64,000 bases of DNA from Chloroflexota bacterium. Its GTDB lineage: Bacteria; Chloroflexota; Anaerolineae; J036; Brachytrichaceae. The stretch covers positions 124,001 to 188,000 of the forward strand of contig JANXLU010000068.1 in the NCBI GenBank assembly GCA_025354985.1, read 5' to 3'. Of the stretch, positions 42,477 through 53,874 are shown piece by piece (the first letter of the stretch is position 1; each line of letters starts with the position of its first letter). The notes beneath the pieces were generated by a model. That model saw nothing but the letters and a program-made list of their open reading frames with translations, made no database searches and was not told where the DNA came from. A program made the translations under genes and the position numbers.

Positions 42477-43643
42477 TCAGTTAACCTCAATAGCGTCCAC
42501 GAGCATCCTGGCCGCCCGCATAAGCTCTTCCGGTGCGTAGAAGCTAAATGCCAGGCGCAGGGCGTGGTCGCCCCCACCACCGACAAAAAACTTGGTGCCA
42601 GGCAGGAATGACATTCCGCGCTCTTCAGCGCGCTCCAAAACGCGCATCGCACTTTTGACCTCGGGCAAGGAAACCCAAACAAAAAACCCGCCGTGCGGAG
42701 GTCGGACCTGACAACCGCGGTCACGCAGCGGCTCCAACCCGTTTAGCAACGCGTCACGTCGCCGTCGATACGCGTCCACAATCAAACCAAGGTTGGCCTG
42801 ATATCCGCCAGCCCGACATATCTCATTCACGATTAAGCCCGAGATAGGAGCCACGCCCCCTCCGCTATCCAACAAGCCATTTTCGCCAAGCGCACGACAA
42901 ACATCTGCAGGAGCGGTCATAAAACCCACCCTCAACCCTGGTGCCAAGGTTTTACTAAAGCTGCCCAGACGTATGACAATATCGTGCGTATCCAGGCTCC
43001 AAAGTGATACCGGTGCAGGCCCATCAAAAGATAGCTCACGATAAACGTCATCTTCGATAATCAAAAAACCTTCGCGTCCGGCCAAATCCACGAGCTGCTG
43101 CCGCCTTGCCGCTTCCAGTGAGCGCCCAGTTGGGTTGTTAAACGTCGGCACGCAATACAACATGCGTACAGTGCGGCCTGACCGTTTTAGCTGACGGACG
43201 CGATCACTCAGCTGCTCGATATCAATGCCGTCCTCGTCCGTAAAAACGGGGATCAATTCAACCGGATGATCCCTAAGAATCCGAACGGCCAGATGATAGG
43301 TCGGTGCCTCAACAAGAACGCAATCACCCGGTTTGGCCAATGTTGTGCATATCTGGTCGATTGCCCAGGAATTTCCACCGGTAACAACTACCTGCTCCAG
43401 CTCCGGTTTTCGACCTTCGTTTAAGTAGATTTGTGATTGCAGCCATTCCAAAAGCGGTCCCGGCCCCGTGGCATAGCCATAGGCTAACGCCTCCTGGCTC
43501 CTGGTTACAAATACAGCATTTGTCGCCTGGCGGATCAGGTCGGCTGGCAAAAGTGCCGAATCTGGATGACCCCAGCCCAAATCAATTAGTCCCGGTCGAA
43601 GAACCAGCTGGACAACCGGTGGGGAAGAATTGACCTTACTCAT
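42477..43643 (-). CDS. lysN: PLP-dependent aminotransferase, LysN-like (2-aminoadipate transaminase)
   Basis: A 388-residue fold-type I aminotransferase. VVVTGGNSWAIDQI lies near residue 90, LYCVPTFNNPTGRSLE near 168, and the PLP lysine in RLGSFSKTLAPGLRVGF near 238. This is the group that includes Thermus LysN. Convergent with lysZ, it would supply the transamination steps of the lysine pathway. MocR-like relatives exist, but there is no HTH domain here. The only good start (ATG 43643) begins with the discriminator base of the upstream tRNA, so expression is entangled with tRNA processing. Confidence 0.82.
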   Translation of the reverse strand: MSKVNSSPPVVQLVLRPGLIDLGWGHPDSALLPADLIRQATNAVFVTRSQEALAYGYATGPGPLLEWLQSQIYLNEGRKPELEQVVVTGGNSWAIDQICTTLAKPGDCVLVEAPTYHLAVRILRDHPVELIPVFTDEDGIDIEQLSDRVRQLKRSGRTVRMLYCVPTFNNPTGRSLEAARRQQLVDLAGREGFLIIEDDVYRELSFDGPAPVSLWSLDTHDIVIRLGSFSKTLAPGLRVGFMTAPADVCRALGENGLLDSGGGVAPISGLIVNEICRAGGYQANLGLIVDAYRRRRDALLNGLEPLRDRGCQVRPPHGGFFVWVSLPEVKSAMRVLERAEERGMSFLPGTKFFVGGGGDHALRLAFSFYAPEELMRAARMLVDAIEVN

Positions 43644-43714
43644 GGCCCCAACAGGGGTCGAACCTGTAACCCACGCTTTATGAGAGCGCTGCTCTGCCTT
43701 TGAGCTATGGGGCC
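43643..43714 (-). tRNA. tRNA with anticodon CAT, probably tRNA-Ile2 (lysidine) rather than elongator Met
   Basis: A 72-base cloverleaf on the minus strand. Acceptor GGCCCCA pairs with TGGGGCC. The anticodon stem is GCGCT/AGCGT with loop CTCATAA, so the anticodon is CAT. The T arm is ACAGG-TTCGACC-CCTGT. C4-G69 and C5-G68 in the acceptor resemble the E. coli tRNA-Ile2 elements used by TilS, and the E. coli tRNA also begins GGCCCC. It is not an initiator by these pairs. CCA is not encoded, and A73 is the A of the next gene's ATG. Confidence 0.9.
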
Positions 43715-43744
43715 CATTATGACTGACGATTTTACCCGACGGCT

Positions 43745-45334
43745 TTAATTAATTAGTTTGTAAGCCTCAAGCGTAAGGAACTCATCAAACACCGGTCGTT
43801 TGGTCATGTCGCGAAAAAGGACAGAGGCGCTTCTAAATTCGGCACGCTCGCATCGTTCAGGACCCAATTCCGCCCCGAGTTTCACCAAAACATCATCCAT
43901 GATGTGATCAAACAACTCTGAAGTTAGTTTTCGACCATCGGCCAAAGGCGCCTGGTGAAATACCCACTGCCACAATTGCGCGCGACTTATCTCGGCAGTA
44001 GCAGCATCCTCCATCAAGTTATACAGTGGCACGCATCCGTTTCCTCGCAACCACGCATCCATATATTGCACGCCCACGGAAATATTGGTTCGGACGCCTG
44101 TTTCAGTGATTAACCCTTCCTGCGGCTTAAGCAAGTCTGCAGAGGTAACCGATACATCCTCGCGTTTCCGTGCAATCTGGTTCTCGGTCTTCATCGCGGC
44201 AAACTGTTCCGCAGCAATGCCAACCAGACCAGGATGTGCAACCCAAGTGCCGTCGTGCCCATCGGTAACCTCGCGCAACTTGTCTGCCCGGACCTTGGAA
44301 AGTGCCACTTCATTCGCCGAGGAGTCGCCCTTGATTGGAATCTGCGCGGCCATGCCTCCGATTGCATAGGCGCCACGACGATGACACGTTTTTATTGTGT
44401 TGAGCGCATATGCGCGCATGAAAGGCGATGTCATGGTCACCTGTGCGCGATCAGGCAAAATATATGCCTTGTATGTTGCCAGCTTCTTGATATAGCTGAA
44501 TATGTAATCCCAGCGACCGCAATTCAACCCGACAATGTGCTCGCGCAACTCGTACAAAATTTCATCTTCTTCAAAAGCGGCAAGTATCGTTTCGATCAGC
44601 GCCGTTACCGCTATCGATCCACGGGGTACGCCGATCGTATCCTCGGCAAAAACAAACACGTCGTGCCACAACCTGGCCTCCAAGTGGCTCTCCATCTTTG
44701 GGAGATAAAAATACGGCCCGCTGCCGCGCCTCACGAGCTCGGCAACATTATGGAAAAAGTATAGACCAAAATCGAAGAGGCTGCCGGATATCTGGGCGCC
44801 ATCCACTGTCATATTTTTTTCATTTAGATGCCATCCACGCGGCCGAACAATTAATGTTGCGGTGTGCTCGGCAAGTTTGTACTGTTTCCCGTCTGGATTC
44901 TCAAAACTAATCGTGCGGTTTATGGCGTCGCGTAAATTAACGTGTCCCTGAATGTTGTTGTCACGGGTGGGTGAATTGCTATCTTCAAAATCCGCCATAA
45001 AGCAGTTTGCTCCACTGTTTAAGGCATTGATAATCATCTTTCGATCAACGGGGCCGGTAATTTCCACATTTCGCCTTTTCAAGTCAGCCGGCGCACTGCG
45101 AACTGACCAATCCGCATCACGAATATGCTTGGTTTGAGGAAGAAAATCCGGCAGCTCGCCCGCGGCGATGCGGGTCTGTCGCGCCATCCGGGCCGCCAAC
45201 AAATCAAGACGACGTGCATCAAAATTTCGGTGCAACGCAGCCAGAAACGACAGAGCCTGCGGCGTGAGCACTTGATGCGTCTGATCGTTATCAGGGAATT
45301 GAGTTGCGATTCCTGTGCTGTTTGTTACTGTCAT
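43745..45334 (-). CDS. aceB: malate synthase A
   Basis: A 529-residue enzyme that condenses glyoxylate and acetyl-CoA to malate. The stretch ITGPVDRKMIINALNSGA near residue 75, then ANCFMADFEDSNSP, is characteristic of the A isoform. RPRGWHLNEKNM and FDFGLYFFHN follow. TMTSPFMRAYALNTIKTCHRRGAYA is the last conserved region before the catalytic-Asp part. ATG 45334 has AGGTGA seven bases upstream; a GTG at 45343 is an alternative. It is the last gene of the protease operon, 13 bases after the emfourin-like gene. No isocitrate lyase is in the window. Confidence 0.95.
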   Translation of the reverse strand: MTVTNSTGIATQFPDNDQTHQVLTPQALSFLAALHRNFDARRLDLLAARMARQTRIAAGELPDFLPQTKHIRDADWSVRSAPADLKRRNVEITGPVDRKMIINALNSGANCFMADFEDSNSPTRDNNIQGHVNLRDAINRTISFENPDGKQYKLAEHTATLIVRPRGWHLNEKNMTVDGAQISGSLFDFGLYFFHNVAELVRRGSGPYFYLPKMESHLEARLWHDVFVFAEDTIGVPRGSIAVTALIETILAAFEEDEILYELREHIVGLNCGRWDYIFSYIKKLATYKAYILPDRAQVTMTSPFMRAYALNTIKTCHRRGAYAIGGMAAQIPIKGDSSANEVALSKVRADKLREVTDGHDGTWVAHPGLVGIAAEQFAAMKTENQIARKREDVSVTSADLLKPQEGLITETGVRTNISVGVQYMDAWLRGNGCVPLYNLMEDAATAEISRAQLWQWVFHQAPLADGRKLTSELFDHIMDDVLVKLGAELGPERCERAEFRSASVLFRDMTKRPVFDEFLTLEAYKLIN

Positions 45335-45347
45335 GTGAGTCACCTGA

Positions 45348-45986
45348 CTAGGCTACCAAATATGTTTTCAGTAGGGTGATGAGTTCGCCGACGGGTTTTG
45401 GAATTGATCCGTCAAAGACTTCCAAATCATGGACCTTGTTGTCTACAGTTGCGACAAGCTCGTAGGCATATGTGTCGGGCCGCTGATTGCCTATGATTGA
45501 GACTGGCGCAAATGTTTCGGCCGTAATTAAGGACACCATGTCCTCCAATACCCTGGCATCCAAATTCAATTCTGTCGCGGCCGCACCGTCGTTTCCATGC
45601 TCGACATGTTTGCTTCGCACGTGACCATCGGCAAATACCGATACCTCGCGTGACGAAAAACTAATTCCGCCACTCATTCGCATGCACACGATCGCGCCAT
45701 CAGAAAGCGTTGGCTTGGCCGCGCCCCTTAAAGACTGGGAAGCAATGTTCTTGCCCAGGGAAGCAAGGGTTGAATCCAACGAAGCATTGATGCCAATTAT
45801 CGTCTGAGGCTGCAAACCGTCATGGTCGGCGTTCGACACATCAAGCTGACCGAATAGCTTGTCATTGCTTTTTGCGGGCGGCGTCCCAATTCTGTCACTT
45901 CGCCGCGCAGTAGGTTTGGTGGCGCGTGTCCTTCTCGGCGTTCCCGCGGCGTGCCCCGGTTTGGCTTTCTTATGTCGCGCTGTCAT
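45348..45986 (-). CDS. emfourin-like candidate M4 protease inhibitor
   Basis: A 212-residue protein with two parts. The first 70 residues are basic and disordered (KKAKPGHAAGTPRRTRATKP). Residues 95-210 have MRMSGGISFSS, then FADGHVRSKH, LDARVLEDMVSLITAETF, PDTYAYELVATVDNKVHDLEVFDGSIP and a final LITLLKTYL. This order (SGG, Asp, helix, PDxxxYxL, G/K-HxV, DxxxP) is what I remember of emfourin, the inhibitor of the protealysin M4 protease in Serratia. It starts inside the stop of the gene before it (ATGA), in the operon of an M4 protease. No signal peptide is visible, so an intracellular inhibitor or docking role is possible. The family call is moderate. Confidence 0.5.
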   Translation of the reverse strand: MTARHKKAKPGHAAGTPRRTRATKPTARRSDRIGTPPAKSNDKLFGQLDVSNADHDGLQPQTIIGINASLDSTLASLGKNIASQSLRGAAKPTLSDGAIVCMRMSGGISFSSREVSVFADGHVRSKHVEHGNDGAAATELNLDARVLEDMVSLITAETFAPVSIIGNQRPDTYAYELVATVDNKVHDLEVFDGSIPKPVGELITLLKTYLVA

Positions 45987-46594
45987 TCCACCCTCACGGT
46001 TTTTAACATTTCGTCAAACTGCGCATTGGCGCGGTCATATTCACTGCTTGGTGCGGAAAGCGTCACATAATAGCTTGTCTGCCTGCCAACCAGTATGACG
46101 TCTCGCGTCTGAACCACCACCGGCAGCGAAGCACTGCGCGGTTGGTCAATCGGCTGGGTCGTAAAGGCATAGCCAAGTTCCACACCCTTGGTGCCTCCGA
46201 CCGTCGTCTCACGGCTTCCCAGAAAGTGGTATCCGGTCAACTTATTGCGCTCTTCCACACGACGATCCAACAAGGTCTGGAGGGTTGGTGGGCTTGCAAT
46301 GTCCAAGTCGCGCCTAATCACTACCACGTTTGACTTGTAGGCCGAACCGGTCTCCGGGTCTTGAACTTTGAGAAGTGAGTCCGACAGCGTCGTGCCCTTC
46401 TCCCAACCAGATGGGTACGCCAGCCGAAATGTTGATTCAGGCTCTTGATACACCTCCAAACGCGCATCAACAACCCGATGGATAATAAATCCTGCAACCA
46501 ACGCGAGTGCAGACACCAACAAGACACCAACATCCTTGCGGGTGTGTCGTATGCGCCAATATTGTTGACTGGCCGTTGTTTTGACCACCGCCAT
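45983..46594 (-). CDS. single-pass membrane protein with PsbP/DUF1795-like outer domain
   Basis: A 203-residue protein. Residues 1-22 are basic, residues 23-40 (GVLLVSALALVAGFIIHR) a membrane helix, and the rest lies outside. The outer domain contains FRLAYPSGWEKGTT near residue 58, KSNVVVIRRDLD, TTVGGTKGVELGYAF and DVILVGRQTSYYVTLSAPSSEYDRAN. This sequence order resembles the PsbP/DUF1795-type folds in which a YPxxW segment and a late FDxxLxTxR helix occur (here FDEMLKTVRVE). Function unknown. It begins two bases after the PrsW-like gene and its stop overlaps the emfourin-like start. Confidence 0.7.
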   Translation of the reverse strand: MAVVKTTASQQYWRIRHTRKDVGVLLVSALALVAGFIIHRVVDARLEVYQEPESTFRLAYPSGWEKGTTLSDSLLKVQDPETGSAYKSNVVVIRRDLDIASPPTLQTLLDRRVEERNKLTGYHFLGSRETTVGGTKGVELGYAFTTQPIDQPRSASLPVVVQTRDVILVGRQTSYYVTLSAPSSEYDRANAQFDEMLKTVRVE

Positions 46595-46596
46595 CG

Positions 46597-47526
46597 TTAT
46601 GCCCTCCCAAACTGAACCGACATGCTTCGTCGCATCAGCACCAACAATAGTCCAAATGCTGCCGCCGCCAGCAGCCCGCCCAAAATCAACGACCGAAATG
46701 GTTCAGTGGTTAATCCACTCGCGCTAACCTCACTCAGCAACCACGTAAATAGTCCGTTAAGAAAGGCGCACACGATAAACCCGGTCGGAACATACCATGT
46801 TGGCCGATGCTTAAACTTCGCTTCGGCCATCACATAGCCCATCAACCCACCAAATGCGGCCTGCGCCATTGCAGTGGTAACGGTGCGAATTACGCCTGCA
46901 GTCAAATCCACCCCTCCATTGTCAATGACATATCGCAAATTCAACAGGGCCGCCAGACCCAGACCTGCTGCCGTTCCATAAACGATACCGTCCATTCGCT
47001 CGTCAAAATCCGCCGATGCATACACCGTCCGCACCGCCAAATATTGCACAAGTTGATAGACCACGCCAAGAACCAAAACGCTAGCCATCAGCGACACCCA
47101 GGTCACGTGCGCCCACTCTGAAACATGAAACGCATCTTCAATGAGACGGCGCCCCGCCACGTCATACACGACCATCGCCACTATGACCACTTGCGCAATT
47201 CTGGTCTTTGGTTCCGGTTCAACTTGATCCTCGCGATAGAACCAGATAAGCCACAATATGCTGGGCACGACGGATATCAAAATTCCGGCGATCCACATTG
47301 GTGGGCCGCTGAGCGGCCCACTGCTTAGGCCAAGCAGCGCCGCCCCTACGGCAAAAACCACGAGCCCGATAATTTGTGCCAACCCTGCGCGCCACATGCC
47401 CGCATGCGGTTTGTTCACCAGCGCGAAATGTCGCGCACAGTACACCCTTCCGCCATAGGCGTTATAAGGAGCAACCAGCGGTTCTCCACAGATGCAACAA
47501 TCGGCGTCTTGCGACATATCTAGCAT
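46597..47526 (-). CDS. PrsW-like membrane protein without catalytic residues, with N-terminal zinc-ribbon
   Basis: A 309-residue protein. Residues 10-33 form a CxxC...CxxH site (C10, C13, C30, H33). About eight membrane helices follow. The core matches the PrsW pattern (YREDQVEPEPK, then ADFDERMDGIVYGTAAGLGLAAL and GLMGYVMAEAKF). The glutamates and lysine of the EExxK motif are replaced (Y157, Q158, Q161), the Glu of the EN motif is L195 and the metal histidines are Q222 and N257. PrsW cleaves anti-sigma factors inside membranes; this copy probably does not cleave. The ATG at 47526 has AGGAG seven bases upstream. It lies 21 bases after the M4 protease gene and two before the next. Confidence 0.8.
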   Translation of the reverse strand: MLDMSQDADCCICGEPLVAPYNAYGGRVYCARHFALVNKPHAGMWRAGLAQIIGLVVFAVGAALLGLSSGPLSGPPMWIAGILISVVPSILWLIWFYREDQVEPEPKTRIAQVVIVAMVVYDVAGRRLIEDAFHVSEWAHVTWVSLMASVLVLGVVYQLVQYLAVRTVYASADFDERMDGIVYGTAAGLGLAALLNLRYVIDNGGVDLTAGVIRTVTTAMAQAAFGGLMGYVMAEAKFKHRPTWYVPTGFIVCAFLNGLFTWLLSEVSASGLTTEPFRSLILGGLLAAAAFGLLLVLMRRSMSVQFGRA

Positions 47527-47547
47527 GAACTTCTCCTGATGGTTCCG

Positions 47548-50169
47548 TTACCTGCTTCGGCGGAGCGTGGCATTAACCAGGAACGGGTTGTTTGCGTTTG
47601 AAGGAAGCGTTACTCCATTGTCTGCGATTACGGGACGGTAATTTCGTGCAACAATGATCACACTGTACTGCTTGTTTCTGGCAATCGCACTCTCAGTTTG
47701 AAATTGACCGTTGCTATCAGTGACCGCTGTTGTCAGAATATCCTGCTCATTTACGTTGTCCTGCGCAGCCACCGCGCTGGCACTGAGACCCGCACGCAGA
47801 ATAATGACCTGCGCACCTGGCACCCCGCGTCCGGTATCCGCATCAACCAGCTTGCCACCCAAATAGACCACGTCGTTGGCCCGTGGTTGAGGAGCGGCGG
47901 GTGCCGTGCCTGTTGTGCACGCAATAATGCCCACGTCATCAACGAAGAAGCTGGAAGTATTTTGTCTGGGGTTCTCCGCAGTGAATAACAATCGGATCGA
48001 ATGGCCGGCTAGCTGGCTTATGTCAAATTGCTGTTGTGTCCAAGCATCATCTGCATCATCACTCGTTAACTGTTCGATCACCGCCCTACCCGTGCTTTGA
48101 GGATTAGCTATCTGGGTCGCAAATCGCGCCGGGCTGGTGAAGAACCCCAGTACGCCGCCGGTTTCCTTGTGGATCAGCCGAAAGTATCGCAAACTGACCG
48201 TTGTCGCGTTTGCCGGAATTGCGATATCCTGATAAATGGCCTGAAGCGGTTCCTGGTCCTGGCCACCAAGCCAGGCACTACCCGTACCCGTGTGCGGCAG
48301 CTCGGATTCGATCAAGCCGGTATTGCCTTTTGTATTCTGCTTCCATGTATCTTGACTTTCAAATCCACCGTTCTTTACGACGTTGACGCACCCCGCAGGC
48401 AGTGTCTCAGGCGCCGATGGTTGTGCCGGCGTTTGCGTCGTCGGTTGCGTTGTGGGAGCAGCCGGCCCTACACTGCTTGCACCAGCTCCTATGCCCACCT
48501 GTGACCAAGCCGTTCGTACCACAGTCGCGCCGTCTGCTCCATATAGTTCCTGGGCGCTCCGTATAGTTGCATTGGCAGCGTCCGCAAAATTGCTACGCGG
48601 AGTCAAATAGTTAGTCAGCGCGCGATACCAAATTTGCGCGAGTTTGTCCTTTCCAAGCGATTGACCCACGTAGTAGGCCGCGTGGTTTGGCACGCCGCTA
48701 TTGATATGTACACCGCCGTTATCCGCCCGGCGGCTTATTTCCAAATTGGCATACTCGTTCATCGTCGCCGGCTGCCCAACGCCTGCCAGAGGATTTCGGG
48801 GGTTGTAATAGCCACCGGCATTTGGATCACTCATGCTCCTCAAATAGGGCACGGGAAATGGCGGCGACTTCACTGTGCCCCGGCCAATGTCCCAGTTTGC
48901 ACCGCTAATTAGAACGCCAAAGACATCAGCATAGCTTTCGTTTAGCGCGCCACTTTGTGACTCATATACAAGGTTGGCCGTGCTTTCGACCACACCGTGG
49001 GTAAACTCATGCCCGATGACATCCAAACCATACGCCAGGGGACGAAACATCCGGCCTCCGTCGCCAAAGACCATTTGCTTCGCCTCGCCAATCCACGCCG
49101 CATTTTCCTGCTCCTGCGGGTCGCTTCCAAAATGCACCGTGCTAATAAGTGGCATACCGCGACCGTCCAGGCTGTCTCGCTTGAAATTCGTCGAATAAAA
49201 GTCATAGACCTTGCCGGCACCATCGTGTGCCGCCTGTCCGATTGGATCGGCTGTCCGGTTGCCTTCATCCGCCAGAAGCCTGCCTGGCAAATCTTCGGTT
49301 GCCTGCGCAGTAAATGTCTGGCGGCGCCGCAAAATTTCGTTCGCATCAATTGCATGGGTCACCACGGGGCGGCGTGCGTTTACAAAAAACGTCCACTGTC
49401 CCAGCGGCGTGCGCGTGAGCATTTTCACCATCCACACCAGCGTTGGATGGTCATTCACGTCCACATACACCATGAGCTGAGTTCGATTGCCGAGAACCGA
49501 TGGCAATGCAGTTGCGGCTTCAGCCCCGTCCAATTGGCGTTCGCGCAGATTACGCAACGCCAAATCTTCGGCTTCAGCCCGATCAACGGTTGGTTCTATG
49601 TTCAAAACTAGCGAGGGCACATACTGCCCGTTGACCGCGAGCACGTGATTGCTGGCGTCAACATGGACGAACAACTGCCGGCCATAAACTGGCAAACCCT
49701 GAAATATTTGTCCAAACCTTGCGTGTTGGAAACCATCCAATGTGTCCGGCGCCAGTTCCAATAGTTGCAAATCTTTCTGTGCCGAGCCCAGCATGAACAG
49801 GCCCCGGTTTTCGTCCAGGAACCCGCGCGCCAGAGCTTCGGGGTTGCCGCGCTCAATTGCCGGGGCAACATACGGAAGCGGCGTCACATGATCCGAAGAT
49901 TCAAGCCAGGTCACCGTACCAAAACTGTCACTTCGTGCAGCCAATAACGGTTGCGTTGTCATTGATTGCAGCCGCTTCAAGGCCACTGCTGGAGAGTCCT
50001 GATGAAGCGCTATTTCGCCTGTCACCTGATTGGTCGCGGTGCGTATTTGTTCGGCGTGCGGCGCAACAAAAAAGGCCGATGCTGCCAATGAAATCGTAGC
50101 AAGGATCGCGCCAATAGTCGCAATCCGCCTCGGTTTGGGATGCTGCTGTTTCAATATCAACTGCGTCAT
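47548..50169 (-). CDS. secreted M4 (thermolysin-like) zinc protease with C-terminal binding and regulatory domains
   Basis: An 873-residue exported protease. A signal-like stretch (residues 14-40, ATIGAILATISLAASAFFV) is followed by a propeptide (to about residue 290) of the FTP/PepSY type (GLPVYGRQLFVHVD). The catalytic domain has GHEFTH (about 387) and ESQSGALNESYADVFG, the two M4 zinc motifs. NNGGVHINSGVPNHAAY fits the family. After a Pro/Thr linker come a beta-sandwich-like domain (VVKNGGFESQDTW) and a carboxypeptidase-regulatory-like domain (LGGKLVDADTGRGVPGAQVI). The ATG at 50169 lies just after AGGAGG. It heads the operon with the pseudo-PrsW and emfourin-like genes. Confidence 0.92.
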   Translation of the reverse strand: MTQLILKQQHPKPRRIATIGAILATISLAASAFFVAPHAEQIRTATNQVTGEIALHQDSPAVALKRLQSMTTQPLLAARSDSFGTVTWLESSDHVTPLPYVAPAIERGNPEALARGFLDENRGLFMLGSAQKDLQLLELAPDTLDGFQHARFGQIFQGLPVYGRQLFVHVDASNHVLAVNGQYVPSLVLNIEPTVDRAEAEDLALRNLRERQLDGAEAATALPSVLGNRTQLMVYVDVNDHPTLVWMVKMLTRTPLGQWTFFVNARRPVVTHAIDANEILRRRQTFTAQATEDLPGRLLADEGNRTADPIGQAAHDGAGKVYDFYSTNFKRDSLDGRGMPLISTVHFGSDPQEQENAAWIGEAKQMVFGDGGRMFRPLAYGLDVIGHEFTHGVVESTANLVYESQSGALNESYADVFGVLISGANWDIGRGTVKSPPFPVPYLRSMSDPNAGGYYNPRNPLAGVGQPATMNEYANLEISRRADNGGVHINSGVPNHAAYYVGQSLGKDKLAQIWYRALTNYLTPRSNFADAANATIRSAQELYGADGATVVRTAWSQVGIGAGASSVGPAAPTTQPTTQTPAQPSAPETLPAGCVNVVKNGGFESQDTWKQNTKGNTGLIESELPHTGTGSAWLGGQDQEPLQAIYQDIAIPANATTVSLRYFRLIHKETGGVLGFFTSPARFATQIANPQSTGRAVIEQLTSDDADDAWTQQQFDISQLAGHSIRLLFTAENPRQNTSSFFVDDVGIIACTTGTAPAAPQPRANDVVYLGGKLVDADTGRGVPGAQVIILRAGLSASAVAAQDNVNEQDILTTAVTDSNGQFQTESAIARNKQYSVIIVARNYRPVIADNGVTLPSNANNPFLVNATLRRSR

Positions 50170-50322
50170 GTTCCTCCTGAGAACAACCAAAAGTTGCATG
50201 TAACAACGTTGAGTTTACGTTGTACCAGACACACATGCAACTGAACGCGTAAGCATGAATACTTGAGCGTCCAAATCCGACGTGCCAAGTGTAACGGACT
50301 TTTCGAAAGGTGAGTTACCAAA

Positions 50323-51168
50323 CTATTTGGAAGGTACAACATCTGGACGAAGGAGGCGAGCGACCAACGTCTGGTAAAAATAATTGCGATTTTGGATGCG
50401 CGCAAAGCGGGCGAAATACGGACAACTGGCCACCGTCACAATGTCGCCGTTTTCAAGCACAATCTCCTGTTGACCATCGGCTGTCATCGTCGCTTCGCTT
50501 TCAGTGCTGACTGTCAACTCAATCGTGCTGCCCAAATCCGCAACGATGGCCCGATCCAGGCTTAGGTGTGGCGCAATTGGCACGATCAACATGTTCTTTA
50601 ACGTCGGCGAAAGGATTGGTCCGCCGGCAGCCAGCGCGTATGCCGTGCTGCCCGTGGCCGTGCTCACAATCATTCCGTCGCAGGCGTAGTCGGTTAGAAC
50701 ACTACCGTCAATGCTGACCTTTACATGAACAAGTCTGGCCATTGTCCGGCGCCCAACCACGACGTCGTTAAGCGCATCCTGCCTGCCCAAGATTGTCTTG
50801 CCGCGCGATACAGTGGCGGTGATCATTGCGCGTTCCTCCAGCCAATAGTTGCCCATCAAAAAGCTGGGAAGTACAGTCCGCCAGTTATCGCGCGTCATCT
50901 CGCTCAAAAAGCCAAGCTTACCCATGTGGACGCTCGCCACCGGCACTCCGTTTGGTGCGGCCACGCGCGCGGCTCTCAAAATGCTGCCATCACCGCCCAG
51001 CGTTACAACCAGGTCAATACCGGGCATAAATGCGGCCATCATGTCGCTCTCCCAACTCGTTGCGCGATGAACCAGCACGCCCCTATGGATCAAGAAATCC
51101 GCGATTTCGCCGGCAAGTTCGCGCGTCTCGGGCTTTTTGGGATGATCCAATACTGCAACTTTACGCAT
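50323..51168 (-). CDS. nadK: NAD kinase
   Basis: A 281-residue enzyme that makes NADP from NAD and ATP. The diagnostic GGDG is in LVVTLGGDGSILRAAR near residue 59. CDGMIVSTATGSTAYALAAGGPI is the second NAD-binding motif. The N-terminal RKVAVLDHPKKPE and mid-region PVASVHMGKLGFLSEM also fit. ATG 51168 or ATG 51174 is possible. It follows hisS with a gap of four to ten bases. A 153-base region between nadK and the M4 protease gene contains no clear signal. Confidence 0.94.
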   Translation of the reverse strand: MRKVAVLDHPKKPETRELAGEIADFLIHRGVLVHRATSWESDMMAAFMPGIDLVVTLGGDGSILRAARVAAPNGVPVASVHMGKLGFLSEMTRDNWRTVLPSFLMGNYWLEERAMITATVSRGKTILGRQDALNDVVVGRRTMARLVHVKVSIDGSVLTDYACDGMIVSTATGSTAYALAAGGPILSPTLKNMLIVPIAPHLSLDRAIVADLGSTIELTVSTESEATMTADGQQEIVLENGDIVTVASCPYFARFARIQNRNYFYQTLVARLLRPDVVPSK

Positions 51169-51178
51169 GATCATAAAC

Positions 51179-52531
51179 TTATTCCGCCAAAAGCTGCCGA
51201 ACTGTTTCTGTTACATCCGATGCAAGGCAGGTGCACTCAGTGGTGGTGCGCATGTCCTTTATTTTGAAGCTATTTGTAGAAAATTCATCTGCACCGGCAA
51301 TCAACGCCAACTTAAAGCCTTTTTTGCTTGCATACTTTAATTGATCGCCCAAACCCTTTTTGTCGAAGAAGACCTCAGCGCCAACACCGTTGCTGCGGAG
51401 CTGGGCGGCAGTTTGAAGATAATAATCCATTCGTGCGGGATCCATTGATGTAACCAGAACGGGAGCCACGGTTTGTGCACCCGTCGGCAAGACGCCGCGC
51501 TCTAGTAGCGCAAACATAAGCCGGCTGAGCCCAATGGATATTCCGACGCCTGGAAGCTTTTCACTGGTGAAAAAGCTGGCCAGGTCTTCATATCGCCCGC
51601 CGCTACAAATACTGCCAAGGTCGGCATGGTCAATCAACTTCGTTTCATAAACCGTTCCGGTGTAATAGCCCAAGCCTCGTGCCACGCTGGGATCAATGAC
51701 AAAATTCGCCTCGGGTACACCCAAGCTGCGCATACCAGCGACTACGGTTTTCAATTCTGCCAAGCCCTGGTCGTATGTTGCATTGCCATATGACGCTCCA
51801 TTACTCAGCTGTGTCAAAAGTTCATCGGTCGGCAGCGATTGCGCCGTCATGGCCATGATTGCGCTTGCTTGCATCTCGCTCAGCCCAAGGTTTTTGGTAA
51901 GGTCGGCAAATACGGTGTCTCTACTGGTCTTATCCAACCGGTCTACAGCGCGCAAAACGTCCGCAATTTGCCCGTGTGCCACGCCCTGTGCTTCAAAGAA
52001 GCCTTGCAAGAGTCGCCTGTTATTGATACGAATTACAAACGCGCCGATGTCCATCCGGTCAAAAATTTTGTAGATGATGGACGGAATCTCAGAATCATTA
52101 AACAGGCTGACGGATCCGCGGCCAATCACGTCGATATCGCATTGGTAAAACTCGCGATAGCGGCCCTTTTGAGCGCGTTCACCCCTCCAAACCTTTTGGA
52201 TCTGATAGCGCCGAAACGGAAAGGTCAGTTTGTCTTTGTGTTGAGCGACATAGCGCGCAAATGGAACGGTAAGGTCAAAGTGCAATGCAAACTCGGTCTC
52301 GCCCACTTCACCTGGTTGTGATTGCATTCGGGAAATTGCGTATATTTCCTTTTCCTCGCCTCCTTTCGAAGTTAGCACCTCCTTGCGTTCCACCGAAGGT
52401 GTTTCGATCGGAGCGAAGCCAAATGCTTCAAAGGTTTCCCGAATAATTTGCAGTGATCGATTAAACACGATCTGTTGTTCAGGTAACAACTCGGGAAATC
52501 CGCTCATGGGTCGGGGCGTTATTGCTGTCAT
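51179..52531 (-). CDS. hisS: histidyl-tRNA synthetase
   Basis: A 450-residue class II synthetase. Motif 1 is in the first 40 residues (SGFPELLPEQQ). Motif 2 lies in RYQIQKVWRGERAQKGRYREFYQCD near residue 108, with the histidine-specific GLGYYTGTVYE near 296. CSGGRYEDLASFF and GVGISIGLSRLMFAL, near 318-345, form motif 3. The C-terminal anticodon domain (PVLVTSMDP, EVFFDKKGLGDQLKYA) fits too. Its ATG overlaps the stop of the preceding lipoprotein gene (ATGA), and nadK follows almost immediately. Confidence 0.95.
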   Translation of the reverse strand: MTAITPRPMSGFPELLPEQQIVFNRSLQIIRETFEAFGFAPIETPSVERKEVLTSKGGEEKEIYAISRMQSQPGEVGETEFALHFDLTVPFARYVAQHKDKLTFPFRRYQIQKVWRGERAQKGRYREFYQCDIDVIGRGSVSLFNDSEIPSIIYKIFDRMDIGAFVIRINNRRLLQGFFEAQGVAHGQIADVLRAVDRLDKTSRDTVFADLTKNLGLSEMQASAIMAMTAQSLPTDELLTQLSNGASYGNATYDQGLAELKTVVAGMRSLGVPEANFVIDPSVARGLGYYTGTVYETKLIDHADLGSICSGGRYEDLASFFTSEKLPGVGISIGLSRLMFALLERGVLPTGAQTVAPVLVTSMDPARMDYYLQTAAQLRSNGVGAEVFFDKKGLGDQLKYASKKGFKLALIAGADEFSTNSFKIKDMRTTTECTCLASDVTETVRQLLAE

Positions 52532-53874
52532 TGATTTAGTAGGATGATGGCGCTATTGGCGCCCATTGAAACTGTCTTGTCAACTGTGGCACCTGAGATG
52601 GTTTTATACACCTTGTCAACATCAAATTTTTTGGTCTCTGTGGCCACATTTATCAAAACCAGACCGTTTGAAAACTGACGTTTATATATCCCGCTACTAC
52701 TCTTTGAGTAGGCTTCCAGTGGTGACCCAATTGGCGCTGTCAGGTAGGGATCATCCGCCAAGTTCGGAAATGCCGTTGCCTCAAACTGCAAATAGGAGTG
52801 ATTCCCATTTTTGCCCACGAGATAACTCACCACCGTATATTGCAACCATTGGCGAGCCAGCTCCGCTGTCACATCAGTAATCACTATACGCGTGGACAAA
52901 AGCACAATCCGACCATCAGAACTTGCGGAACCCAACAAATCAATGTCTTTCTTCCAATCCTCTTCTTTCTTAAACGACGTTACTTTGCCGGCGGGTGCTC
53001 GTAAGAATTCATCAACCTTTACGCCGTCCACAATCGACGCCAACTCCAGCGCCTCGGTCGCCTTTTTGCCAAACGCGTCACCGTCGGTCCAGGCGTAACC
53101 GCCGGCCACTATCAGTTTGTCGGGAATCCGTGCCCGCACTGCCCGCAACAACCCTTCGACCGCATCTTTGCGCTGTTGGTCGGTAAATAGCTTTGTGCCC
53201 GTATAGACTGGTCCGGCATCCACCCTGATCAAGTCAGTGCCCAATCCCTCCAGGACGATTCCGTCCAACCCGCCGCTGCGCACGATTCCCAGCGAATCAT
53301 CCGCCAACAGCGCACGAACCTCTGGATCGCGAATATTCAACAATGGTTCTTTGTTTGTGCTCGCCAAAGCTACTGCTTGTTTGGCGTCATATAGAAAAAG
53401 GTTGGGTTTCGCGGACCTGACGGCCGTGATCGTACCGCTATAGCCAAAATAGACTTGTCGCGCCCCCAACGTGACCAACGTCGGATTAGCCTTTCGCGTG
53501 GCCGATGCGACCTCGCCCACGGCAATGTCCGCAACTCTTGAGATCACCGACCCGGCCCCGGGACTGTTCAACCACAACCCGACCGCAGCCGATGTATCAA
53601 TTGGCAACCGTTTCGCCACAGGTGGAGCTGGCGCAGGAGTTGCCGATGCAAGGGCCAACAAAGTCGCGGTTGGCTGCACTTGCGGCGGCGTCTGCGCCGT
53701 GACGTAAGCCACTGGCGACGGGAATTGACTTACGGCAGGCCGTGCCGCAGTTGCGCAACCTACCAGCACGGTGGCGGCTAGCGCCGTCGCTGCCAGCCCG
53801 AGGATCAAACGTATCTGTTTGACCCCAATCCCGGTACCCTGACCAGCGTCAACGCGCATGTGCACCAAACTCAC
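52528..53874 (-). CDS. lipoprotein with TIM-barrel-like putative glycoside hydrolase domain (GHL15-like)
   Basis: A 448-residue protein (GTG at 53874, or 443 from the ATG at 53859). A hydrophobic core and lipobox LVGC near residue 39 mark a lipoprotein, followed by a Pro/Ala/Thr linker. The domain after residue 90 has [31 protein letters not shown] and [13 protein letters not shown], which resembles the putative glycoside hydrolase GHL15/DUF4015 pattern; the acids in [10 protein letters not shown] could be catalytic. The GTG overlaps the dnaJ stop and its stop overlaps the hisS start. It therefore sits oddly inside the heat-shock operon. Confidence 0.65.

Follow-up and report, generated by a model that had tools for sequence, protein, structure and literature searches.

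A dead PrsW-family membrane protein and a PsbP-fold protein are co-inherited with a C-terminal domain of secreted proteases in Chloroflexota

The locus

We analysed a 64,000-nucleotide stretch of contig JANXLU010000068.1 from a Chloroflexota bacterium (hereafter the window), in which four minus-strand genes encode a secreted protease, a dead PrsW-family membrane protein, a PsbP-like protein and an emfourin-like protein. The first product is an exported, thermolysin-like M4 protease of 873 amino acids (a.a.; 47548-50169), as judged from Pfam, sequence motifs and a hydrophobic segment, and the second is a multi-pass PrsW-family pseudoprotease of 309 a.a. (46597-47526; PF13367). The third, of 203 a.a. 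(45983-46594), is a single-pass membrane protein with a transmembrane (TM) segment at about residues 24-42 and a PsbP-fold domain that is predicted, from a PsbP match and the fold of a fused homologue, to lie outside the membrane. The fourth is an Emfourin-family (Emf) protein of 212 a.a. (45348-45986), with a variable basic N-terminus and an emfourin-like domain at residues 93-212. The genes are packed head to tail, with gaps of 21 bp (M4-PrsW) and 2 bp (PrsW-PsbP) and a 4-bp overlap (PsbP-Emf), as the initial annotation had described, and its four protein identities were upheld by Pfam and orthologue profiles. Nothing that the initial annotation had listed as a refutation turned up.

The M4 gene starts with the ATG at 50169 (the longer open reading frame begins at 50199) and encodes an N-terminal signal or TM segment (residues 16-34), an FTP propeptide motif, the M4 catalytic domains, a MAM-like region and a C-terminal domain. 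The Pfam matches were M4_C (4.3e-41), M4 (8.3e-25) and FTP (3e-10). The catalytic and alpha-helical domains (residues 294-560; 48490-49290), located by Pfam and motifs, contain an intact zinc-binding motif, HEFTH with NESYAD, which is HExxH with its downstream Glu.

The C-terminal domain (CTD; residues ~766-873, about 105 residues; 47551-47874) was overlooked in the initial annotation. It is common to M4 proteins and to S1-type proteins of other genomes (these CTD-bearing proteins are called cargo below), and it ends no more than three residues from the end of the protein in 104 of 111 matches. Judged from sequence, the CTD is the hallmark of the system, and the constant partner of the PrsW and PsbP-like proteins is this domain rather than the M4 enzyme. 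The window CTD is the only one in its genome; a second M4-type match there (L167, G000 C11:95166-95384; open frame of 905 a.a.), which served as an internal control, has no CTD. Profile comparison describes the domain as CarboxypepD_reg-like: the window sequence matches PF13620 at 2.4e-4 (21.8 bits against a cut-off of 32.3), and relatives score 33.0 and 34.0 bits. Neither a TM helix nor an invariant Cys is present in the CTD, and the short motif, TM helix and basic tail of MYXO-CTERM and GlyGly-CTERM tags were not found in it. When the CTD profile was compared with PDB sequences, the best match was a cell-wall anchor protein at 0.0014.

Conservation of the module

The window PrsW-like protein was searched in 60 relatives and the neighbourhoods were then retrieved. 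The order M4 > PrsW > PsbP > Emf recurs in the same genus, in the same family and in other Chloroflexota families; it is therefore not unique to this contig, and the recurrence rules out an artefact of one contig. This conservation of gene order is far beyond chance. A scan of GTDB representative genomes yielded 224 PrsW relatives. The best 80 of the 224, from which the taxonomy was taken, belong to Chloroflexus, Oscillochloris, Kouleothrix, Viridilinea, Roseiflexaceae, Roseilinea, Thermoflexales, Caldilineaceae and other Chloroflexota, together with a few metagenome-assembled genomes (MAGs) labelled as other phyla. One Gracilibacteria-labelled MAG (L122, 7986-8938) carries the module with the PrsW frame split in two, the best segment being 66% identical to the window PrsW; this contig is probably misassigned Chloroflexota.

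At distant loci, the PrsW-PsbP pair adjoins proteins that match just the last ~110 residues of the window M4 protein, and these are secreted S1 trypsin/HtrA-like proteases (Trypsin_2 E ~1e-17 to 1e-25). With a CTD profile, a CTD protein was found in nearly every complete module. Two layouts occur, M4-CTD > PrsW > PsbP > Emf and PrsW > PsbP > S1-CTD, and PrsW and PsbP are often fused in the second. The cargo of 85 non-identical three-part modules comprises 44 S1 proteins, 30 M4 proteins and 11 others without a recognised protease domain. Some cargo proteins consist of a middle domain and the CTD only, and the middle-domain profile also matches many S1 cargo proteins. The HExTH motif is present in all 33 M4-type cargo proteins (33/33), and the His and Ser motifs in 42/46 of the S1 type by a strict pattern. 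These recurrent modules across Chloroflexota bear out the claim that a dead intramembrane protease and a secreted protease are linked in a conserved way. The locus had been named a protease-control operon; the association with a secreted protease stands, but an M4-specific quencher does not, since most modules carry S1 or protease-less cargo, and the name is too narrow.

In genome G118 (L159 and L160), the M4-CTD gene is on a different contig from the PrsW, PsbP and Emf genes, both far from contig ends, and the CTD is still kept. Five loci of the window's own family (L037, L039, L041, L045 and L048; L144 and L129 are second names of L037 and L039) are tandem double modules, in which a fused PrsW-PsbP and a protease-less CTD protein stand beside a second PrsW-PsbP with its own cargo. 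The gene maps, in which neighbours were not systematically clustered, showed no extra gene that constantly accompanies the module.

The dead PrsW protein

The window PrsW matches PF13367 (PrsW-protease) over the cut-off at 2.4e-13, which places it in the PrsW family; it also matches NF033739 at 2.4e-23, yet far under the 225-bit equivalog cut-off. The catalytic motifs of PrsW are EExxK, a His and HxxxD (PMC4602095). In the window protein, the catalytic positions (EExxK, the E of EN, the TM5 His and HxxxD) read Y157, Q158, Q161, L195, Q222, N257 and T261: the former EExxK is now YQLVQ (residues 157-161; 47044-47058), the former TM5 histidine is Q222 (46861-46863) and the former HxxxD is NGLFT (N257...T261; 46744-46758). 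The active site is thus wholly replaced, as first described; this loss is not a peculiarity of the contig but marks the whole PsbP-paired family. None of 104 distinct PsbP-paired PrsW proteins (0/104) keeps the full catalytic set. Every readable member has lost both the EN glutamate and the histidine of HxxxD, and the N of EN is retained almost everywhere. EExxK has become QExxK in most S1-type PrsW that still have the motif and is degraded in the M4 type; some S1-type proteins retain EExxK or QExxK plus one histidine, and the M4 clade retains almost no catalytic residue. The other PrsW of the window genome (C80, L158), an internal control, keeps an intact catalytic set.

Nine PrsW pairs gave dN/dS values of 0.045-0.134, similar to those of the protease domains (0.026-0.137), and therefore the dead PrsW is under purifying selection; these low values rule out random decay. 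Many Chloroflexota proteins annotated as "PrsW family intramembrane metalloprotease" would seem not to be proteases.

The window PrsW begins with a predicted cytoplasmic zinc-ribbon-like segment (CxxC...CxxH; C10-C13...C30-H33; 47428-47499), which the initial annotation counted as part of the system. The segment is not conserved throughout the family: the ligand pattern occurs in 29/34 M4-type and 25/49 S1-type PrsW and was not found in the other 5/34 and 24/49, so the ribbon is dispensable. In Roseilinea-type genomes (L022-L024, L026), the ligands are replaced (CCITGEP...YSDRAF) and the segment itself is conserved.

The PsbP-fold partner and the Emf protein

The window PsbP-like protein matches PF01789 at 3.2e-4, slightly under the cut-off. 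In many loci, PrsW and PsbP are joined as one protein of ~480-510 a.a., and an AlphaFold model of such a natural fusion (L129; pLDDT 88.7) contains a helical membrane part, an extra helix and a PsbP domain. The outer domain aligned with cyanobacterial PsbP (2xb3) at Z 16.5 over 142 residues (rmsd 2.7), indicating the PsbP/Mog1/DcrB fold. The best structural match of the membrane part was APH-1 of gamma-secretase (5a63_C; Z 13.4, 208 residues, rmsd 6.2), and SpdC (6u0o_A, from the SagB-SpdC entry) matched at Z 7.6 (167 residues, rmsd 4.4).

The window Emf protein alone matches PF20242 (Emfourin) at 0.03-0.059, under the cut-off. We consider this weak match real because 26 of 27 orthologues match PF20242, the best at 8.9e-10 and several over the curated cut-off, in agreement with the initial assignment. 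The AlphaFold model of the Emf domain (pLDDT 88.5; a misframed row, L094, was left out of the alignment used for folding) matched Mago nashi best, at Z 10, and emfourin itself (6zyg) appeared at Foldseek rank 37 with Z 4.5. Membership of the emfourin family is thus supported by the sequence profile, and structure alone does not settle it. The Emf profile gave only chance-level matches to PDB sequences.

Emf had been described as one of the parts of the system, but it is an addition to the M4 version. It stands beside 32/37 M4-type loci, against 0/56 S1-type loci (counts that include a few loci fetched twice), and some of the Emf-less M4 loci are truncated where the contig stops. In a 400-genome sample of the phylum, all 15 strong Emf matches (E < 1e-18) fall in genomes with both the CTD and PrsW and with M4-sized CTD proteins; S1-type genomes of this sample have at most weak matches, located elsewhere. 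Emf evolves faster than the neighbouring module genes (dN/dS 0.08-0.38). The deepest-branching M4-type module (L105, 5387-9544) has no Emf detected beside it, and therefore Emf may have joined after the M4 protease did.

Co-inheritance and protease exchange

Separate CTD and PrsW profiles were run over the same 400 genomes, a comparison less exposed to the bias of selecting loci by PrsW. The CTD was found in 26 genomes, this kind of PrsW in 27 and both in 24 (Fisher p 4e-33, which ignores shared ancestry and overstates independence). Each genome with a strong PrsW match also has the CTD. The three PrsW-only genomes gave weak matches (1e-24 to 1e-31), and inspection of one of them, L165 of G337, showed an intact catalytic set. 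Of the two CTD-only genomes, G430 does carry this PrsW, which adjoins an S1-CTD gene where a contig ends; the match in G254 was not taken as support, as its frame is rich in arginine and looks spurious.

CTD distances track PrsW and PsbP distances (r 0.85-0.86). Three genomes carry two modules; each of their CTDs is 78-90% identical to CTDs of the same module type elsewhere and only 33-36% identical to the other CTD in its own genome, and PrsW behaves likewise. This pairing by module type argues against species phylogeny as the sole cause. In the PrsW tree, the M4 type forms one clade (100/99), apparently nested among the S1 type; therefore, the protease was exchanged while the CTD, the dead PrsW and PsbP were kept, and the tree suggests a single exchange of S1 for M4.

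Interpretation

Since the CTD, the dead PrsW and PsbP are constant and the protease is exchangeable or missing, the pattern would be explained most simply if PrsW-PsbP recognised the CTD and thereby kept the cargo on the membrane surface. We regard it as slightly favoured that the dead PrsW and the PsbP-fold outer domain act as a membrane receptor or scaffold for CTD-bearing secreted proteins. The cargo would leave the cell via its own N-terminal signal, and its CTD would dock on the PsbP domain, the outer face of the dead PrsW or both, so that the protease might stay positioned at the cell surface rather than being lost. In the window's lineage, an M4 protease with the same CTD would have taken the place of an S1 trypsin-like cargo, and an emfourin-type inhibitor would have been added in the cytoplasm, where it may neutralise M4 molecules that fold prior to export. 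Emf has neither a hydrophobic signal nor a TM segment, and a cytoplasmic guard against prematurely folded M4 is therefore its natural reading. The wider proposal has about an even chance of being right: a bacterial surface-retention system that pairs a pseudo-intramembrane protease with a PsbP-fold protein as the specific receptor of a folded CTD, and into which unrelated secreted proteases (S1 or M4) can be plugged, as a counterpart of APH-1-like and iRhom-like scaffolds.

Several known systems share parts of this arrangement. By analogy, APH-1 and SpdC-SagB are precedents for members of the superfamily that partner other enzymes. APH-1 is a CPBP/PrsW superfamily member of a protease complex, and its QExxR motif (PMC6588880) resembles the QExxK of many proteins here, but it is eukaryotic, its partner is an intramembrane aspartyl protease, and it has neither a PsbP domain nor a secreted CTD-tagged protease. 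SpdC (LyrA) of Staphylococcus aureus is a membrane protein of the CAAX-protease family that both binds SagB directly and modulates it (PMC12272431); it belongs to the Abi/CPBP rather than the PrsW family, its partner is a glycosidase, and there is no CTD or PsbP protein. A dead intramembrane protease that partners a metalloprotease has its analogous precedent in iRhom2, an essential partner of the surface metalloprotease ADAM17 as far as PMC11248996 tells, although iRhom2 is a eukaryotic member of the rhomboid family and ADAM17 is itself membrane-tethered. Protealysin and emfourin, likewise an M4 protease and an emfourin-family inhibitor encoded in one operon (PMC9505478), differ in that protealysin is described as intracellular and that, as far as PMC9505478 tells, no PrsW, PsbP or CTD is involved. 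Myxosortase with MYXO-CTERM and rhombosortase with GlyGly-CTERM also pair a membrane protease-family protein with a C-terminal tag of exported proteins (PMC11980579, PMC3237569). Those proteins are active enzymes and their tags short with a TM helix, whereas the present system has a dead enzyme, a tag that is a domain of ~105 a.a. and mostly one-to-one pairing. PrsW has also been tied to exported cargo in polymorphic toxins, with a proposed role in export (PMC3482391). There it serves as a processing peptidase and is fused to toxin domains, unlike the inactive PrsW here, which is separate from its cargo, and toxin export of that kind was therefore rejected. In the open-licence PMC literature, preprints excluded, we found no paper on the combination of PrsW, PsbP, CTD and protease, which is not proof of absence.

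Some points weigh against retention by PrsW-PsbP. The CTD might serve another purpose than binding PrsW-PsbP, such as substrate or sugar binding, and both the interaction and the surface location are inferences. The neighbourhood loci were mostly picked by PrsW sequence, so that conserved neighbourhoods were partly selected for. Rooting of the PrsW tree is uncertain, as the outgroup branch is very long, and for this reason the direction from S1 to M4 is put forward tentatively. The APH-1 match is to a helical bundle, for which a Z near 13 can arise without kinship; the PF13367 sequence match still supports the family.

The same co-inheritance and dead active site would also fit a restraining role, in which the protease, once bound by PrsW-PsbP, would be held at the membrane in an inactive or immature state until released by a signal, as iRhom2 restrains ADAM17 on the account in PMC11248996. 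We consider this unlikely: the 11 modules whose CTD cargo lacks a recognised protease domain would need no restraint, emfourin would already inhibit the enzyme in the M4 version, and M4 has its own FTP propeptide motif. The zinc ribbon raises another idea, that the PsbP domain monitors the CTD protein on the outside and signals its state through the dead PrsW to the cytoplasmic ribbon. Its ligands are kept in many members of both types, and Zn-ribbon-PrsW fusions have been interpreted as signalling proteins (PMC3482391); however, the ribbon is absent or ligand-depleted in many others, and the gene maps, read without systematic clustering of neighbours, disclosed no additional constant gene by the module, which makes sensing quite unlikely.

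Residual or altered catalysis, by which PrsW would cleave the CTD or a membrane substrate through other residues, could draw on the S1-type proteins that keep EExxK or QExxK with one histidine and on myxosortase, a CPBP-family enzyme that processes C-terminal tags (PMC11980579). We judge it very unlikely, given that the HxxxD histidine and the E of EN are kept by 0/104, that the M4 clade is almost devoid of catalytic residues and that a TM helix and a conserved cysteine like those of MYXO-CTERM are both missing from the CTD. An immunity function towards protealysin has been put forward for emfourin (PMC9505478), and the fast evolution of Emf would suit an antagonistic role in which secreted M4 attacks neighbours, emfourin protects kin and PrsW-PsbP aids export. 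This is highly improbable, as S1 versions have no Emf, the window proteins have no PADLOC match and toxin-like variation of the cargo was not seen. That the genes form an operon of convenience, with no joint function, is hardly credible: the malate synthase gene (43745-45343), which starts 4 bases past the Emf stop, does show that tight packing alone proves nothing, but the near-perfect co-occurrence in 400 genomes, the exclusivity of the CTD, the protease exchange and the paralogue-matched CTDs all speak against it.

If retention by PrsW-PsbP is correct, the module would be a widespread bacterial case, for example in Chloroflexus and Oscillochloris, of a dead intramembrane protease kept as the partner of secreted proteases. 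The exchange of S1 and M4 under a constant CTD, PrsW and PsbP would amount to a natural domain-swap experiment that points to the recognised part. The module would also offer a small, testable model of how APH-1-like and iRhom-like scaffolds arise from active enzymes, since intermediates with QExxK or a histidine remain.

Flanking genes and other candidates

A defence system was rejected as an identity for the locus: the four window proteins had no PADLOC match, and one S1 cargo protein had only a generic protease match. A scan of 43600-50400 gave 5 promoter-like sites against 4.9 expected, which is chance level, and 14 terminator-like sites against 7.9 expected, none of them decisive. The neighbouring genes for malate synthase, NAD kinase, HisS and DnaJ gave no sign of belonging to the module. 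Between the HisS and DnaJ genes, the window encodes a protein of 448 a.a. (52528-53874) without a Pfam match at E<=1. The adjacency of malate synthase looks like chance packing in this genome, where the transcript of the four genes may run on into that gene.

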